NCBI RefSeq assembly: GCF_009301415.1
Contig: NZ_CP045073.1
Span: forward strand, 124,001-188,000
Direction of reading: 5' to 3'
Source of the DNA: Paracoccus kondratievae
GTDB taxonomy: Bacteria > Pseudomonadota > Alphaproteobacteria > Rhodobacterales > Rhodobacteraceae
DNA length: 64,000 bases
The notes under the pieces were generated by a model, which saw only the letters and a list, made by a program, of their open reading frames with translations, had not been told where the DNA came from and searched no databases. The position numbers and the translations under genes are program-made. Position 1 is the first letter of the stretch. Every line of letters starts with the position of its first letter. Shown piece by piece: positions 19,846 to 62,958 of this stretch.

Positions 19846-19920
19846 GGGCGATTAGCTCAGCGGTAGAGCGCTTCGTTCACATCGAAGATGTCAGCGGTTC
19901 AAATCCGTTATCGCCCACCA
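19846..19920 (+). tRNA. tRNA-Val (anticodon CAC)
   Basis: A complete cloverleaf can be drawn: acceptor GGGCGAT pairs with ATCGCCC, D arm GCTC...GAGC, anticodon stem CTTCG/CGAAG with loop TTCACAT giving anticodon CAC, and T arm AGCGG/CCGTT with TTCAAAT loop. The CCA end is encoded at 19918-19920. Its 3' 45 bases serve as the attachment site of the small island downstream. Confidence 0.93.
19876..19920 (+). repeat. Attachment-site copy in tRNA-Val (att, left)
   Basis: 45 bp from the anticodon loop to the CCA end of tRNA-Val. The same 45 bp recur at 22696-22740 in direct orientation with one mismatch (G at 19913, T at 22733). This is the classic signature of a tyrosine-integrase element that restores the tRNA 3' end on insertion. 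Confidence 0.8.
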
Positions 19921-48519: not shown

Positions 48520-48553
48520 TCCCCCTTCAACACCCCTTCAAGGACAGAGCCGC

Positions 48554-48925
48554 ATGTTCACCTTTACCGACCGCTATACCTTCGAATGGCCCGTCCGGGT
48601 CAGGCTGCCGACTGCTGACGGCGAGATCGTTCAGGAATTCACCGGTATGTTTCTCATGCCCGATGACGAGCTCGAGATCTTTGCCCCGGTCGAAGCCGAG
48701 ACAGCGACAGCAATGGTTGAGGTGACGCGCGAGCGTCTGGCGAAATGGTGGGTCGGCTGGAAGGGCATTGCGGTGGAGGGCGGGGGTGAACTGCCCTTCA
48801 GCGCCGAGAACCGTGACAAGCTGTTGCGCCAGCGTGCCGTGCGCATCGCGGTCGATGTCGCGCTTTCCGAGGCGGTGCTGGGCATCCCGTCGCAATCCGT
48901 CCCCGGGATCCGCGAAAAAAACTGA
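48554..48925 (+). CDS. Tail assembly chaperone (G-like), frameshift donor
   Basis: A 123-residue protein, MFTFTDRYTFEWPVRVRLPTADG, directly upstream of the tape-measure region. It ends at ...REKN* on the sequence GAA AAA AAC TGA. The A AAA AAC heptamer at 48916-48922 is a canonical -1 slippery site, so some ribosomes should continue into the next frame and make a fused GT-type protein, as in lambda. Confidence 0.8.
   Translation: MFTFTDRYTFEWPVRVRLPTADGEIVQEFTGMFLMPDDELEIFAPVEAETATAMVEVTRERLAKWWVGWKGIAVEGGGELPFSAENRDKLLRQRAVRIAVDVALSEAVLGIPSQSVPGIREKN
48916..48922 (+). promoter_or_regulatory. Programmed -1 ribosomal frameshift site (A AAA AAC)
   Basis: The heptamer lies in zero frame as A AAA AAC, immediately followed by the TGA stop of the first frame. 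After slippage the next codon is CTG and the -1 frame stays open to 49290. Genes in this place in nearly all long-tailed phages use the same device. Confidence 0.8.
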
Positions 48926-49290
48926 TCCGCGCCGCGCAGGCCATCTGGGGCGGCGCGGCGATCTCGGAAGACCTGGTTGCGGATCTGATGGCCGAGGGCA
49001 TGACCCGGCCCGAGGCCATGACCATGGCGCGGACAATGGTTGGCGAGGGTGAGGTAAGCAATGTCCTGTTGCCTGCATCGGATCACGATCTGATCCGTCT
49101 CATCCTCGCCAGCAACAACCGCTGGCTCCGCGCATCGGCAGGTCTCGGCCCATCTATCCCGATCGGGCTCGATTTGCCCGCCGTGGATGTGACGGCGCGT
49201 TGGCTGGGCATCAATCCCGATGCCCGGCTGCTGGACGGCCTCATGATCCTTGAACGTGAGGCGCTGAAACTCATGAGGACCGAGCGGTGA
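48922..49290 (+). CDS. Tail assembly chaperone extension (T-like), made by -1 frameshift
   Basis: A 122-residue frame read without interruption from the slippery site (LIRAAQAIWGGAAISEDLVA onward). It has no good independent start; the first in-frame ATG is at 48988, without a ribosome-binding site. It would be joined to the upstream product, giving a ~245-residue GT-like chaperone that binds the tape-measure protein. Its end overlaps the tape-measure start by 4 bp. Confidence 0.75.
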   Translation: MIRAAQAIWGGAAISEDLVADLMAEGMTRPEAMTMARTMVGEGEVSNVLLPASDHDLIRLILASNNRWLRASAGLGPSIPIGLDLPAVDVTARWLGINPDARLLDGLMILEREALKLMRTER

Positions 49291-52200
49291 GCAATACGGA
49301 CATGCGCGCATCCCTGACGGTGACAGCCGATGCCAGCGCCCTGGTCGCAGAGATGCGCAAGGGCAGTGAGGGCCTGCGCGAGATCCGCCGCGAGGCCGAA
49401 GCTGCGGCCAGATCTGCCGCAGTCGCCGCCTCCGAGCAGGGGCGCATGGCCGAAAAGCTCAACCGCACCTTCAGCGGTTTTGGTGCCAGCCAGAAATCGG
49501 CGCGCGACAGTGCCAGTGTGTTCGAAGCCAGCCGCGAATACGAGGCGTTCCAGCGTGAACGGGCCGAACAGGCGGCGCGGGCCTATCGTTCGATCGAGGA
49601 AAGCCTCAATCCGCTGATCCGGGCGGAACGGGAACTGGCCGAGGCGCAGGCAGTGGTGAACCGTGCCCTTGCCGAGGGCCAGACCAGTCAGGCCGCCGCC
49701 AACCGGACACTTGCTCAGCTGCAGGCGCGCTACGAAGGGTTTGTGCGGGCACAAAGCCCGGCCGCGCAGAGCGCCCGGGCATTTGAGGCCGCAATCGAAG
49801 CCGAGGCGACGGAGATCCGGCAGCTGACGCTGGCGCTTGATCCGGCGGCGCGCGCCCAGGCCGAGTTCGCCCGGGTGCAGAACCTGACCACCAGCGCGGT
49901 GCGCAACGGCACCATCACCCAGGACGAAGCCAACCGGGTGATGCAGCTGTTTGAGGCCCGGCAGAAGGCCATCGGCAAAGGTGGCTTTGCCATGGCGGGC
50001 GGGTTGCAGAACGCCAGCTACCAGATGACCGACATCATCGTTCAGATGCAGGGTGGTCAGGCGCTGGGGCTTATCCTCGCGCAGCAGCTGCCGCAGTTGC
50101 TTGGCGGGTTCGGCGCTCTCGGCGCGGCACTGGGCGTAGTGGTCGCCCTCGGCGCGCCGCTGGTGACCTCATGGCTGACCTCGGGCGATGCGGCCGGATC
50201 GCTTGATGACCGGCTGCAAAAGCTTGAAGCGCGCATGGCATCGGTAAAGGACCACATGGAGCTGCTGGGCAACCATAAGCTGGATGAAACCTTCGGCAGC
50301 ATGACGGGTGATATTCGGGAACTCACCGAGGTGCTGTTAGCGCTGGATCGCGCTGCTGAACTGAAACAGCTTGGCCTTTCTCTGGATAAGATACTGTCGG
50401 ATCCGATTGATCTGAGCTTCTGGCAGAAACTGAACCGGCCACTCTGGGGCGAGGGTCGTCGGGAATTCACCGAGAACATCAATCGCGGTAGGTATGCGGA
50501 TATCACCGAAGGGCGTGGTCCATCCTACGACGACTACCGTGCCCGGCAGGGTGAAATCATCGATCTGGCGAAGGCTGGAAAGGCAGAGGAAGCCGTCAAG
50601 CGTGTCAAGGATCTGGTCGAGGAATTCACAGGCGGCGGTCCTGTTACCGACCTGAATGATGAATTGGTCACAATGCTGATTAATCTGGGCGCAACAACCC
50701 AGCAGATGGCCGAACTCGAAGCCTTCTTGAATGGGACAGCGAAGGCCAACGCCATCACCCGCCAGATTGATGAGATGGTGCGCGCCTCCGAACAGCAGGC
50801 CGAGCTGTCACGTGCTGCCCTGAAATTTGGCGAGGACAGCGCCGAGGTCGAGGCTGTTCGTGCCCGGCAGGCCAGGGAAAATCTGGCGATCCAGCTGCGC
50901 GAGATGAAAGTGGTCGAAGGCAGCGCCGAGGAACTGCGCGCCATGGCCGCGCTCGATGCCGATCTCGCCGCCTCGGCCGATCTGCGCGCCCAGGCGCGCA
51001 AGAAGGAATCCGACGCGCTCTTTGCGGACCTCACCCGGCAGGGCGAGCTTTCCGCCGCGATCCTGAAATTCGGCAAGGACAGCGCCGAGGTCGAGGCCCT
51101 GCGTGCCCGCCATGCACGCGAGGTCAACGACGAACGCCTGAAGGAAATGGGGCTCGCCCCGGGCCTGCTGGCGCTGGCGCAGAAGCTGTTTGCGGTGGAA
51201 CAGCAGCGTGCCCAGCAGATCAAGGACAGCGAGGCCGGCCGGAAGGCCGACCAGATGTCGGCCAGCCTGCGCGAGCAGGCCGAGATCAACCGGGCCATCG
51301 CCCTGCACGGCCGGGACAGCCTGCAGGTGAAGGAGCTGCAGATCGCGGCCGAGCGGCGCGCTTATGCCGAGTCCCTGAAAACCCTCCAGGTCTCCGAGGA
51401 GCGCAAGCGCCAGCTTATGGCGGAATGGGAACAGGCCCGGGGCCTGGCCTCGGCCGATCCCTTCGGTCAGATCGCCGCCGCACGAGGAATGGCCCGCAGC
51501 CAGCAGGAACGCATCCAGCAACTGAAGCTGGAACAGGCGCTCCTCGGCCAGTCCGAGGCGGTGCGGTCGCGCATTCTTGCACTCTGGAAGGCCGAACAGG
51601 AAATCCGCCGCCAGGGGATCGACGCGACCAGCGAGCGGGCACGCCAGCTGCGCGAGACCGCCGTCGAGGAAGATGCGCTGGCCCGTAGCATCGAACGCCA
51701 GAAAACCGCCTGGGAGGATGTCGAAGCCGCAGCCGAAAGCGCCTTCGACAGTATTCTCGACAAGCTGATGGACGGCGACTGGGAGGAGGCGCTGGAGGAA
51801 GCCGCCAAGGCCGTCGCCGGGACGCTCTTTGACCTCTCGGTACGCAACCCGGGCAAGAATGCGCTGTTCGGGAAGGATCTGCCCACCATGAACGATGTTG
51901 GCGGTCTGCAGGGCATCTGGGCGCGCCTGACCGGCCGGGGCGACGGCTCCGATATCGCCATCCCGGCGCCCGCCACCAATGTCGGCGCCATGAATGTCCA
52001 GGCCGCGAACGTGGTGATCGGAGGCCCCGGCGTCATGTCGCTCCTGGCGGGCATGTCCGGCGCCGCGAACGGCGCGGCTGCGCCCGGGTCGTTTTCGGGC
52101 TTGGGCGGGGCGGATTCGGTTCAGGCGCAAGCCTGGCAGTTCTTTGCCTCAAAGGGCCTGAAGCCGCATCAGATCGCCGGCATCATGGGCAACATTTCCG

Positions 52201-53072
52201 CCGAGAGCGGTTTCGATCCCTTCGCACGGGGCGATAACGGTCAGGCATTCGGCCTGTTCCAGCACAACGACCGCAAGGGCAAGCTCTTCGATTTTATCGG
52301 CGGGGCAGGCAATCTCGGCGATGTGAACCGCCAGCTGGAATTCGCCTGGCAGGAACTGATGACTTCGGAAAACCCGGCCTATCGGCGCTTGCTGGCCTCG
52401 ACAGATGCCCGCAGCGCCACCGAGGCTTTCCTCGGTTTCGAGCGGCCGAGGGGGTTTTCGATGGCCGACCCGACCGGATCGGAGGCCTATGCCAAGCGTG
52501 TCGCGGCTGCCGAAGCTGCGCTTGCCAAGTTTGGCACCACCACCCAGACCACGACTGCGGATCTCGGCACCCTCGGCAATGGCATGGGTGTCTTCGGTCA
52601 GGCGCTTCAGGGCTTTGCGCAAGGTGGCACTCAAGGCGGTCTTAATGCACTGCTCGGCGGGTTGGGCCAAGTGGTGGCTGGAGCGTTGGGTATTCCCGGA
52701 TTTGCGTTTGGTGGGGATTTCGGCGGTGGCCTGCGGATCGTTGGGGAAAACGGCCCGGAGCTGGAATTCACTGGCCCGTCCCGGATCATGAACGCGGAAC
52801 TGACCCGCCAGCTACTGTCGTCACGCAGCTCGGGCGGTGCCGCCAATATCCCGGTTGCGCCGGTCGATACCCGGCCAGTGATCAATGTCGTGAACAACAG
52901 CTCGGCCGAGGTGGGCGAGATCCACGAAAGCACCGATGCGCGGGGCCAGCGTCAATATGACCTGATCGTGTCCGACATGGTGGCGCGCGGTGTCAACAAA
53001 CGCGGCGGCGCAGCTGCCAAGGCATTCCGCAACATGGGCATGACCCCTGCGGTGCGGAGGCGCAACGCATGA
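49287..53072 (+). CDS. Tape-measure protein with tail lysozyme domain
   Basis: A 1261-residue helical tape measure that sets tail length. The N-terminal ~240 residues are a long coiled coil; a membrane-like segment at ~250-300 follows. Imperfect repeats around 'ALKFGEDSAEVEAVRARQAREN', 'ILKFGKDSAEVEALRARHARE' and 'IALHGRDSLQVKELQIAAERR' occur at ~510-710. Residues ~950-1080 (FFASKGLKPHQIAGIMGNISAESGFDPFARGDNGQAFGLFQHN) form a phage tail lysozyme that could locally open peptidoglycan during injection. The tail tip end is Gly-rich. Confidence 0.88.
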   Translation: MSNTDMRASLTVTADASALVAEMRKGSEGLREIRREAEAAARSAAVAASEQGRMAEKLNRTFSGFGASQKSARDSASVFEASREYEAFQRERAEQAARAYRSIEESLNPLIRAERELAEAQAVVNRALAEGQTSQAAANRTLAQLQARYEGFVRAQSPAAQSARAFEAAIEAEATEIRQLTLALDPAARAQAEFARVQNLTTSAVRNGTITQDEANRVMQLFEARQKAIGKGGFAMAGGLQNASYQMTDIIVQMQGGQALGLILAQQLPQLLGGFGALGAALGVVVALGAPLVTSWLTSGDAAGSLDDRLQKLEARMASVKDHMELLGNHKLDETFGSMTGDIRELTEVLLALDRAAELKQLGLSLDKILSDPIDLSFWQKLNRPLWGEGRREFTENINRGRYADITEGRGPSYDDYRARQGEIIDLAKAGKAEEAVKRVKDLVEEFTGGGPVTDLNDELVTMLINLGATTQQMAELEAFLNGTAKANAITRQIDEMVRASEQQAELSRAALKFGEDSAEVEAVRARQARENLAIQLREMKVVEGSAEELRAMAALDADLAASADLRAQARKKESDALFADLTRQGELSAAILKFGKDSAEVEALRARHAREVNDERLKEMGLAPGLLALAQKLFAVEQQRAQQIKDSEAGRKADQMSASLREQAEINRAIALHGRDSLQVKELQIAAERRAYAESLKTLQVSEERKRQLMAEWEQARGLASADPFGQIAAARGMARSQQERIQQLKLEQALLGQSEAVRSRILALWKAEQEIRRQGIDATSERARQLRETAVEEDALARSIERQKTAWEDVEAAAESAFDSILDKLMDGDWEEALEEAAKAVAGTLFDLSVRNPGKNALFGKDLPTMNDVGGLQGIWARLTGRGDGSDIAIPAPATNVGAMNVQAANVVIGGPGVMSLLAGMSGAANGAAAPGSFSGLGGADSVQAQAWQFFASKGLKPHQIAGIMGNISAESGFDPFARGDNGQAFGLFQHNDRKGKLFDFIGGAGNLGDVNRQLEFAWQELMTSENPAYRRLLASTDARSATEAFLGFERPRGFSMADPTGSEAYAKRVAAAEAALAKFGTTTQTTTADLGTLGNGMGVFGQALQGFAQGGTQGGLNALLGGLGQVVAGALGIPGFAFGGDFGGGLRIVGENGPELEFTGPSRIMNAELTRQLLSSRSSGGAANIPVAPVDTRPVINVVNNSSAEVGEIHESTDARGQRQYDLIVSDMVARGVNKRGGAAAKAFRNMGMTPAVRRRNA

Positions 53073-61212: not shown

Positions 61213-62958
61213 ATGGGAAAAGACTCTCGCAATGCGTTCTACTTTGGCGACAATCTTCACGTGTTACGTGAGTATGTCTCAGACGAAAGCATCGATCTGA
61301 TTTATCTCGATCCGCCGTTCAACTCGAACGCAAACTACAACCTGCTCTTCAAATCTCCTGACAAGAAGCGCTGGTCCGACGCGCAGATCACCACATTCGA
61401 GGACACCTGGAGATGGGGGGATCTGGCGGATGCCCAGTTCCGCGAAACCGTTCACGCCGGCGGTAAGGTCGGGGAGGTTCTGAGCGCCTTGCGCCGGATA
61501 CTCGGTGAGAACGACATGCTGGCCTATCTGACGATGATGACTGCGCGGCTGGTGGAACTGCATCGTGTGCTGAAGCCGGCGGGCAGCCTGTTTTTACACT
61601 GCGACCAGACCGCGAGCCATTACCTCAAGGTGGTTCTCGACGCGGTGTTCGGTTTCGACTGTTTCCGGAGTGAGGTGACCTGGAAACGCACGCATGCGCA
61701 TGGAAATGCCAGACGGACGTTCGGTTGCATAACCGACGAGATTTTCTTCTATGCGAAGTCGCGCGGGCATGTGTGGAACCAGCCATTCCGTACGCTGAGC
61801 CGGGAGGAACTGGATCGGAAATACCCCTGCCAGGACCCTGACGGCAGACGGTGGCAGTCAGTCACGTTGCGCAACCCAAGTGACAGGCCCAATCTCAAAT
61901 ACAGCTATACAGCGAGTAACGGCATCACTTATCAGCCGCACAGGAATGGCTGGTCTTGCAATGAAGACAGAATGCGCCGTTACGACCGGGAGGGGCGCCT
62001 GCATTTTCCGTCCCGCCCCGATGGTGCGCTCAGACTGAAGATGTATGAGGATGACAGCCCGGGTGAGCGCATACAGAACCTTTGGGATGATATCGGGCCG
62101 TTGAGCTCGCATGCGCGTGAGCGCCTCGGCTATCCGACGCAGAAACCTGTCGCACTTCTGGAACGGATTATTGCGGCGGCGTCGAACGAAGGCGATCTGG
62201 TTCTCGATCCCTTCTGCGGGTGTGGCACGACGCTTCACGCGGCGCAGAACCTCGGCCGGCACTGGATCGGGATCGATGTCGCGGTTCAGGCGATGCAGGT
62301 GGTTGGCGACCGGCTCCGGCATGCCTTCCCGTCTGTCGCCTATGATGTCTTCGGCCTGCCGGCTGACGCTGACAGCGCGATGTGGCTGGCCGCCCGGGAT
62401 CCGTTCAAATTCGAGGAATGGGCCTGCCTGCGCATCGGCGCCATGCATTCCGGGCGCTTTCGTAATGACGGCGGGATCGACGGTTCGTTCTATTTCCTGC
62501 ATGGCCGGGATGAGGCGAGCCGGGGCATCGTCTCGGTGAAAGCGGGGCGAAACCTCAACCCGGGCATGGTACGCGACCTTGTCGGCACGCTCCAGCGCGA
62601 GCGGCAGATGACGGGCGATCCTTCGACCATTGCAGTGCTGATCACTGCCCACCCTCCGACCTCGGGGATGGTCGATGAGGCCCGGCGTGTGGGCAGGGTC
62701 GAAACAATGGCCGGGGATATTCCGGCTGTGCAGATCCTCTCGGTCGCGGATCTTTTTGGCGGCCGGACCATTCAGGTGCCGCTGATGCTCAATACCGTGA
62801 CAGCCGCCGCCATCGGACGGAAGAAGGATCGTTCTGCCGCTTACACCGACCCGCGAGAGATATTCCGTCAGCGGGAGATTCTCTTCACGTTCAGCGGTAC
62901 GCCGGCCGGGCTTCGTCATCAGCAGGTCTTGCCGGAGCGGCGGAGCCTGAGAGCCTGA
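61213..62958 (+). CDS. DNA methyltransferase fused to an Mrr-like endonuclease-fold domain
   Basis: A 581-residue protein in two parts. Residues ~15-370 form a beta-class amino methyltransferase: DLIYLDPPFNSNANYN (DPPF near 33) precedes LDPFCGCGTTLHAAQ (FxGxG near 332). Residues ~390-560 match a known C-terminal module with GGIDGSFYFLHGRDE and SVKAGRNLNPGMVRDLVGTL, a PD-(D/E)XK-like fold in which the usual Glu is Ser (SVK), so it may be inactive or sense DNA. It occupies the right-end place of Mu mom. Possible roles are phage DNA protection or attack on rivals. Confidence 0.82.
   Translation: MGKDSRNAFYFGDNLHVLREYVSDESIDLIYLDPPFNSNANYNLLFKSPDKKRWSDAQITTFEDTWRWGDLADAQFRETVHAGGKVGEVLSALRRILGENDMLAYLTMMTARLVELHRVLKPAGSLFLHCDQTASHYLKVVLDAVFGFDCFRSEVTWKRTHAHGNARRTFGCITDEIFFYAKSRGHVWNQPFRTLSREELDRKYPCQDPDGRRWQSVTLRNPSDRPNLKYSYTASNGITYQPHRNGWSCNEDRMRRYDREGRLHFPSRPDGALRLKMYEDDSPGERIQNLWDDIGPLSSHARERLGYPTQKPVALLERIIAAASNEGDLVLDPFCGCGTTLHAAQNLGRHWIGIDVAVQAMQVVGDRLRHAFPSVAYDVFGLPADADSAMWLAARDPFKFEEWACLRIGAMHSGRFRNDGGIDGSFYFLHGRDEASRGIVSVKAGRNLNPGMVRDLVGTLQRERQMTGDPSTIAVLITAHPPTSGMVDEARRVGRVETMAGDIPAVQILSVADLFGGRTIQVPLMLNTVTAAAIGRKKDRSAAYTDPREIFRQREILFTFSGTPAGLRHQQVLPERRSLRA

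Follow-up and report, generated by a model that had tools for sequence, protein, structure and literature searches.

How are two overlapping reading frames, which follow the tail tube gene and precede the tape measure gene in a Mu-like prophage, translated when the second lacks a start codon at the junction? The locus lies in Paracoccus kondratievae, in a stretch of 64,000 nucleotides (contig NZ_CP045073.1, positions 124,001 to 188,000; hereafter the window), and all positions below are those of the window, on its forward strand. The zero frame, encoding the putative G part of a tail assembly chaperone, spans 48554-48925 (123 amino acids plus TGA) and starts at an ATG preceded at a distance of 9 nt by a Shine-Dalgarno-like AAGGA, read by eye, at 48540-48544. 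It ends GAA (from 48914) AAA AAC TGA, so that in the zero-frame register a slippery heptamer, A AAA AAC (48916-48922), directly abuts the stop at 48923-48925. The -1 frame, the putative T part of a fusion, runs from 48922 to 49290 (122 codons plus TGA at 49288-49290), is open from 48817, upstream of the heptamer, and its stop is overlapped by the GTG of the tape measure gene at 49287. The earliest ATG, GTG or TTG in this frame after the junction is the ATG at 48988, 22 codons beyond the heptamer, and no Shine-Dalgarno-like run was seen by eye ahead of it. A first-pass annotation had proposed these frames, the heptamer and a second frame reaching the tape measure gene without its own start; the coordinates were as it gave them. 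Judged from sequence, a programmed -1 ribosomal frameshift very probably yields two tail assembly chaperones here from a single start.

The heptamer alone is not rare, with 10 copies of A AAA AAC on the two strands of the window against 2.5 expected. Its place at the stop is rare: only 55 of 1335 distinct stop-to-stop open frames of at least 100 codons, drawn from the collected loci and the window, end in an X XXY YYZ motif right at the stop. Fifty-one of these were of the AAC or AAT types and four of other types; the 51 were taken as the chaperone set as a group, without a check of each one. In the window, eight extra residues (48881-48904, 24 nt, in frame) stand just ahead of the sequence GIREKN; they are absent from three aligned relatives and from loci L001, L002 and L006.

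Searching with the first frame by tblastn returned six phage records, representing four phages that infect Rhodobacter, Rhodovulum or Pelagibaca, and the second frame returned three of the same six records, adjoining the first frame by one base in the -1 register. Genome searches, counted with the prophage's own genome, found the first frame in 5 of 295 (P0001) and 5 of 125 genomes (P0002), and a profile of it (A1) matched in 31 of 390 and 19 of 385. Six A1 matches came without a locus (G023:C11, later L144; G510:C3; G510:C11:134046; G606:C1:2112634; G574:C19; G589). We tabulated 57 loci including that of the window, and eight distinct ones added later (L011, L012, L014, L109, L114-L117) brought the set to 65, near-duplicates such as L003/L004, L115/L116 and L052/L062 included. 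The heptamer abuts the stop in 44 of the 57, lies 3-32 codons upstream in 10 and is missing in three; all eight later loci abut, giving 52, 10 and 3 overall. The abutting sites, cyanophage S-CBS1 among them, comprise 27 AAAAAAC, 24 GGGAAAC and one AAAAAAT, with TGA as the stop in 46 and TAA in six. Two of the upstream heptamers are AAATTTT and the remaining eight are AAC types; for these ten loci, more than 90 open -1 codons behind the heptamer was the criterion of inclusion. From the site onward, 54 of the 57 loci have between 106 and 189 open codons in the -1 frame. Thinning the abutting loci so that ungapped identity across their last 80 residues stayed below 50% left 37 (17 AAAAAAC, 19 GGGAAAC, 1 AAAAAAT). 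Among close relatives no loss of the heptamer was found, A AAA AAC being kept in all eight relatives of the alignment.

A GC-rich stem of the window's own starts a few bases beyond the heptamer. The consensus structure of the window and eight relatives places a 3' stem-loop at 48930-48960, its outer stem pairing 48930-48937 with 48953-48960, 7 nt past the heptamer. Five of its 11 pairs are changed on both sides in some relative, and 88.9% of the stem cells are paired, compared with 38-58% when the 3' side is slid by 1 to 3 positions, a figure biased in favour of the stem by the derivation of the consensus from the same nine sequences. Folding of the first 50 nt downstream was compared with synonymous-codon shuffles at all 54 loci that have a site: z was below -1 in 33 and below -2 in 17, and in 48 the fold was stronger than the mean of the remaining -1 frame. 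The thinned set gave a mean z of -1.39 (24 below -1, 14 below -2, 8 above 0; Wilcoxon p = 2e-6), with 29 of the 37 loci below the shuffle mean, against a mean of -0.32 (7 below -1, 4 below -2) in a control placed at codon 50. At L046, L058 and L059, z is near -5 at the site though the -1 frames fold weakly elsewhere.

In PHROGs the second frame matched phrog_680 (E = 1.4e-7), and PF08809 (DUF1799) was matched above its cut-off by five of six scanned second frames of relatives. That of RcapMu scored 42.9 bits against a cut-off of 26; that of the close relative L110 scored 21.2 bits, under it. We also considered the family from the other side. A sample of the phylum held DUF1799 in 29 of 398 genomes, with 38 matches and 30 fetched loci; eight matches came without a locus, the sample was unthinned, and locus G046 was already in the first-frame set. 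In all 30 loci a canonical heptamer stood in the -1 register, the path from it into the domain was open, and a zero frame of at least 60 codons lay upstream. The heptamers were 20 AAAAAAC, 9 GGGAAAC and 1 AAAAAAG, and 24 of the 30 abut the stop. Counted over the 250 nt before DUF1799, such heptamers fell 32 times in the right register; the other two registers held 14 and 1, the larger of these counts consisting in part of seven-A runs read one base early. In a class sample, 16 of 17 loci conformed, 15 of them abutting, and 15 of the 17 also belong to the first-frame set. L161, which did not conform, is the same locus as L045, and its AAAAAAT site falls beyond the 250 nt scanned. Among annotated phages from the tblastn lists, HK578, VarioGold and Pseudomonas phage YMC11/02/R656 conform and Klebsiella phage JVSB2 does not (three of four). 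In JVSB2 (L156, 1060-1085) no heptamer of the rule was found and the first frame ends CGC CAA AAG CCT TAA; a tetramer-type shift on A AAG would reach a DUF1799-like frame.

Since all 30 phylum loci place DUF1799 in the -1 frame behind a heptamer, the domain appears to be the T part of G-T chaperones. A wider proposal, doubtful when taken with all its parts, is that DUF1799, rather than being a separate gene family, serves as the -1-frame T half of tail chaperones in phages of Pseudomonadota and a cyanophage through one cassette, in which N NNA AAC is fused to the zero-frame stop, a stem-loop follows a few bases on, and the abutting stop is a working element and not a chance gene end, for example by holding the terminating ribosome or setting the ratio of products; we offer it tentatively as a joint conjecture. 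A literature search limited to the pairing of DUF1799 with frameshifting found no paper linking the two. In L045 (1818-2384) and L046 (1818-2279), ENCLQ-like and QNTC-like units are repeated in tandem in the -1 half, after the junction and before the conserved domain.

The first frame appears, by indirect evidence from sequence and from a predicted model, to be related to known tail assembly chaperones. Its PHROGs matches were phrog_569 (labelled tape measure; E = 2.5e-12) and a weak one, over 27 residues, to phrog_313 'Tail assembly chaperone' (E = 0.002), and it resembles RCWATERBOI_47, which is named tail assembly chaperone. Two of the four relatives scanned with their first frames reach the PF08748 (Phage_TAC_4) cut-off of 21.1 bits (L115, 22.3; L059, 21.1). 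An AlphaFold model built from four sequences had a pLDDT of 80.8 (54.7 for the second-frame model), and its fold matches in BFVD included proteins named tape measure chaperones at E-values of 2.8e-3 to 1.5e-2. Profile A1 gave a single weak match to PDB sequences, an amylase-binding protein. Both PHROGs of the pair, 569 and 680, are labelled 'tail length tape measure protein' despite the long tape measure gene behind them, and RefSeq likewise gives that label to one half or the other (for example NC_031059 gp45 and NC_020839 RHWG_00008).

Several results weigh against the frameshifted chaperone. The window's first frame has no Pfam match, and in the other relatives scanned for PF08748, L009 scored 17.4 bits, under the cut-off, and L003 had no match. 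The three best BFVD fold matches (E < 0.001) are unnamed proteins, Foldseek of the model against the PDB gave nothing under E = 0.001, and the HK97 chaperone 2ob9 aligned at noise level, with a Z of 2.6 and an rmsd of 5.0 over 86 aligned residues, a score shared by unrelated chains. PF08809 was found neither in the window's second frame at E = 0.1 nor in its own genome; the DUF1799 link runs via relatives and phrog_680. In 8 of the 37 thinned loci the downstream fold is no stronger than in the shuffles. L038, L039 and L043 (3 of the 57 profile matches) have no heptamer and are probably something other than this chaperone. The heptamer had been called 'optimal', which holds for mammalian ribosomes and not for Escherichia coli, where, according to PMC5009743, A AAA AAC slips far less readily than A AAA AAG; low slippage efficiency may suit the needs of these phages. 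The case as a whole is built on sequence, and the fused protein is a predicted one. L038, L039 and L043 are weak profile matches, small chaperone-like proteins that stand ahead of what, by eye, resembles a prohead protease.

Other ways of joining the two frames were weighed against ribosomal slippage. The frame break could be a sequencing error or the decay of one gene into two halves, a reading for which the break itself is the sole argument; dozens of phages and prophages from independent genomes are broken in the same way at the equivalent position, and the probability of this reading is negligible. RNA polymerase might instead stutter on the A run and produce shifted mRNAs that are translated normally. 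Seven-A runs do occur in the window, in 17 of the 27 AAAAAAC loci and in the AAAAAAT locus; however, 24 of the 52 abutting loci have GGGAAAC, which leaves three A and therefore argues against stuttering, and 10 have six A. The long conserved homopolymer expected of a gene with transcriptional slippage is thus lacking in those 24, which have only AAA before the C, and such slippage in bacteria usually takes place on longer runs. The X XXY YYZ rule persists while the bases change, as re-pairing of tRNAs needs, and because X swaps between A and G under that rule we attribute the shift to the ribosome; polymerase stuttering is very unlikely.

Translation of a separate second protein, reinitiated by stop-start coupling either at the CTG overlapping the TGA or farther inside the frame, for instance at ATG 48988, seems equally improbable. 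In its favour, CTG, which the -1 frame reads at the junction, is one of the rare start codons, and the records of RcapMu50, RCWATERBOI_48 and VarioGold p13 annotate the second half as its own gene with an internal start. Where the stop is TAA (6 of 52) or TAG (3 of 24 abutting DUF1799 loci), however, the overlapping codon becomes CTA, which is no start and therefore argues against coupled reinitiation at the junction. A start occurs within 30 codons past the site in 34 loci, only eight of them with a Shine-Dalgarno-like 4-mer before it, and 18 loci have none. Similarity of the second frame extends to the junction codon itself, and coupling would leave the heptamer unexplained. Gene order, the missing junction start, the conserved heptamer, the covarying stem-loop and the family links, most of them through relatives, all support the G/GT arrangement that the first-pass annotation had recognized.

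For ribosomal slippage, we infer the following course in cells, from its efficiency and junction residue to the roles of G and GT. Most ribosomes would terminate at the TGA at 48923 and release a 123-residue G-like protein. In a minority, tRNA-Lys and tRNA-Asn would move back by one base on A AAA AAC, aided by the stem-loop starting some 7 nt downstream, and these ribosomes would continue to 49290 to give a predicted G-T fusion of 245 residues. On the model of phage lambda, the tape measure protein would be coated by G, with the T part bringing in tail tube subunits. Tandem slippage on such heptamers predicts E-K-N-L-I-R as the main junction peptide, with E-K-K-L-I-R as a minor form; the first-pass annotation had given only the latter.

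Two accounts of why AAC is used were tried and dropped. A host tRNA-Lys(CUU) that makes AAG a poor site was not supported, as ARAGORN, among 43 tRNA matches in the prophage's own genome, listed only tRNA-Lys(UUU); that list also omits tRNA-Ile(GAU), tRNA-Ala(UGC) and tRNA-Tyr, so absence from it is no proof. Avoidance of a start codon formed with TGA, as a reason for Z being C, fails for the TAA loci and for the non-abutting loci (8 of 10 AAC). The preference for an AAC heptamer with an abutting stop, set against the AAG of E. coli, is a testable point on slippage by bacterial ribosomes. For annotation, ordinary gene calling splits the chaperone gene in two, and we suggest a naming rule in which DUF1799 and PHROGs 569 and 680 are treated as what they look like, halves of one frameshifted chaperone.

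By gene content, the surroundings resemble RcapMu: a Mu-like prophage whose tail module is of the siphophage type. Genes for a Mu transposase, an AAA ATPase in the place of MuB, terminase, Mu portal, Mu F, gpT capsid and virion morphogenesis proteins are followed by the tail terminator, the tail tube protein (PF18906, 47590-48519), the chaperone pair and the tape measure protein (49287-53072, GTG start; phrog_19487, E = 1.9e-229). With the tail tube gene before it and the tape measure gene after it, the pair is placed as in lambda-type G/GT. Beyond lie genes for NlpC/P60, tip attachment J and an N6/N4 DNA methylase, the last at 61213-62958, past the tail genes and close to the right end of the window. 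The tape measure protein bears a tail lysozyme domain (PF18013, residues 946-1082), and a genome tRNA scan placed a tRNA-Val(CAC) gene at 19846-19920.

Frameshifted tail chaperones are textbook knowledge. The locus resembles lambda G/GT in preceding the tape measure gene, in its -1 heptamer and in a second frame open through the site; it differs in that lambda uses G GGA AAG with 5 codons from heptamer to stop, and lambda was absent from the first-frame tblastn matches at E = 0.01. PMC5009743 puts the lambda G/GT ratio at 30:1, describes -1, -2 or +1 shifts in different phages and notes a zero-frame stop directly after the frameshift site in dnaX of some bacteria. For two genes from an HK97-like chaperone cluster, experiments yielded 6 and 7% (PMC3711429), and a cluster of insertion sequences with A_AAA_AAC is termed a proven case (PMC4066793). 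The HK97 chaperone record itself reads 'translated due to a -1 frameshift'. The heptamer of phiCbK also abuts the stop, a TAA, and phiCbK and Colossus use AAAAAAC and GGGAAAC (PMC3556154); neither phiCbK nor CcrColossus was matched by tblastn, and the Colossus chaperone was a weak fold match (E = 0.30). In the Mu-like Pseudomonas phages B3 and D3112, in-frame heptamers lie 41-43 codons ahead of the chaperone stop (CCCTTTC; GGGTTTT and TTTTTTC), none of the AAC type.

The Mu-like siphophages RcapMu (genes 49/50) and RcWaterboi (47/48) have the same gene order as the window and a similar first frame, with an identity of about 31%. The name tail assembly chaperone is given to RcWaterboi 47, and the RcapMu GenBank record marks a 'potential -1 frameshift' in the homologous gene. 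Unlike the window, they use G GGA AAC, and their second frame was unmatched by tblastn with that of the window. A survey of R. capsulatus phages describes a programmed frameshift as usual in chaperone genes (PMC8601537). Pelagibaca phage vB_PeaS-P1 and Rhodovulum phage vB_RhkS_P1 are similar in both halves, with A AAA AAC TGA and the -1 register; both are annotated as two genes, the second internally started, with no frameshift mark in the stretches shown. The chaperone frameshift is thus a real, conserved and known phage device, and its interpretation here is well supported; mildly new in comparison with these systems are the identity proposed for DUF1799 and, as far as a partial search of the literature goes, the stop-abutting cassette.
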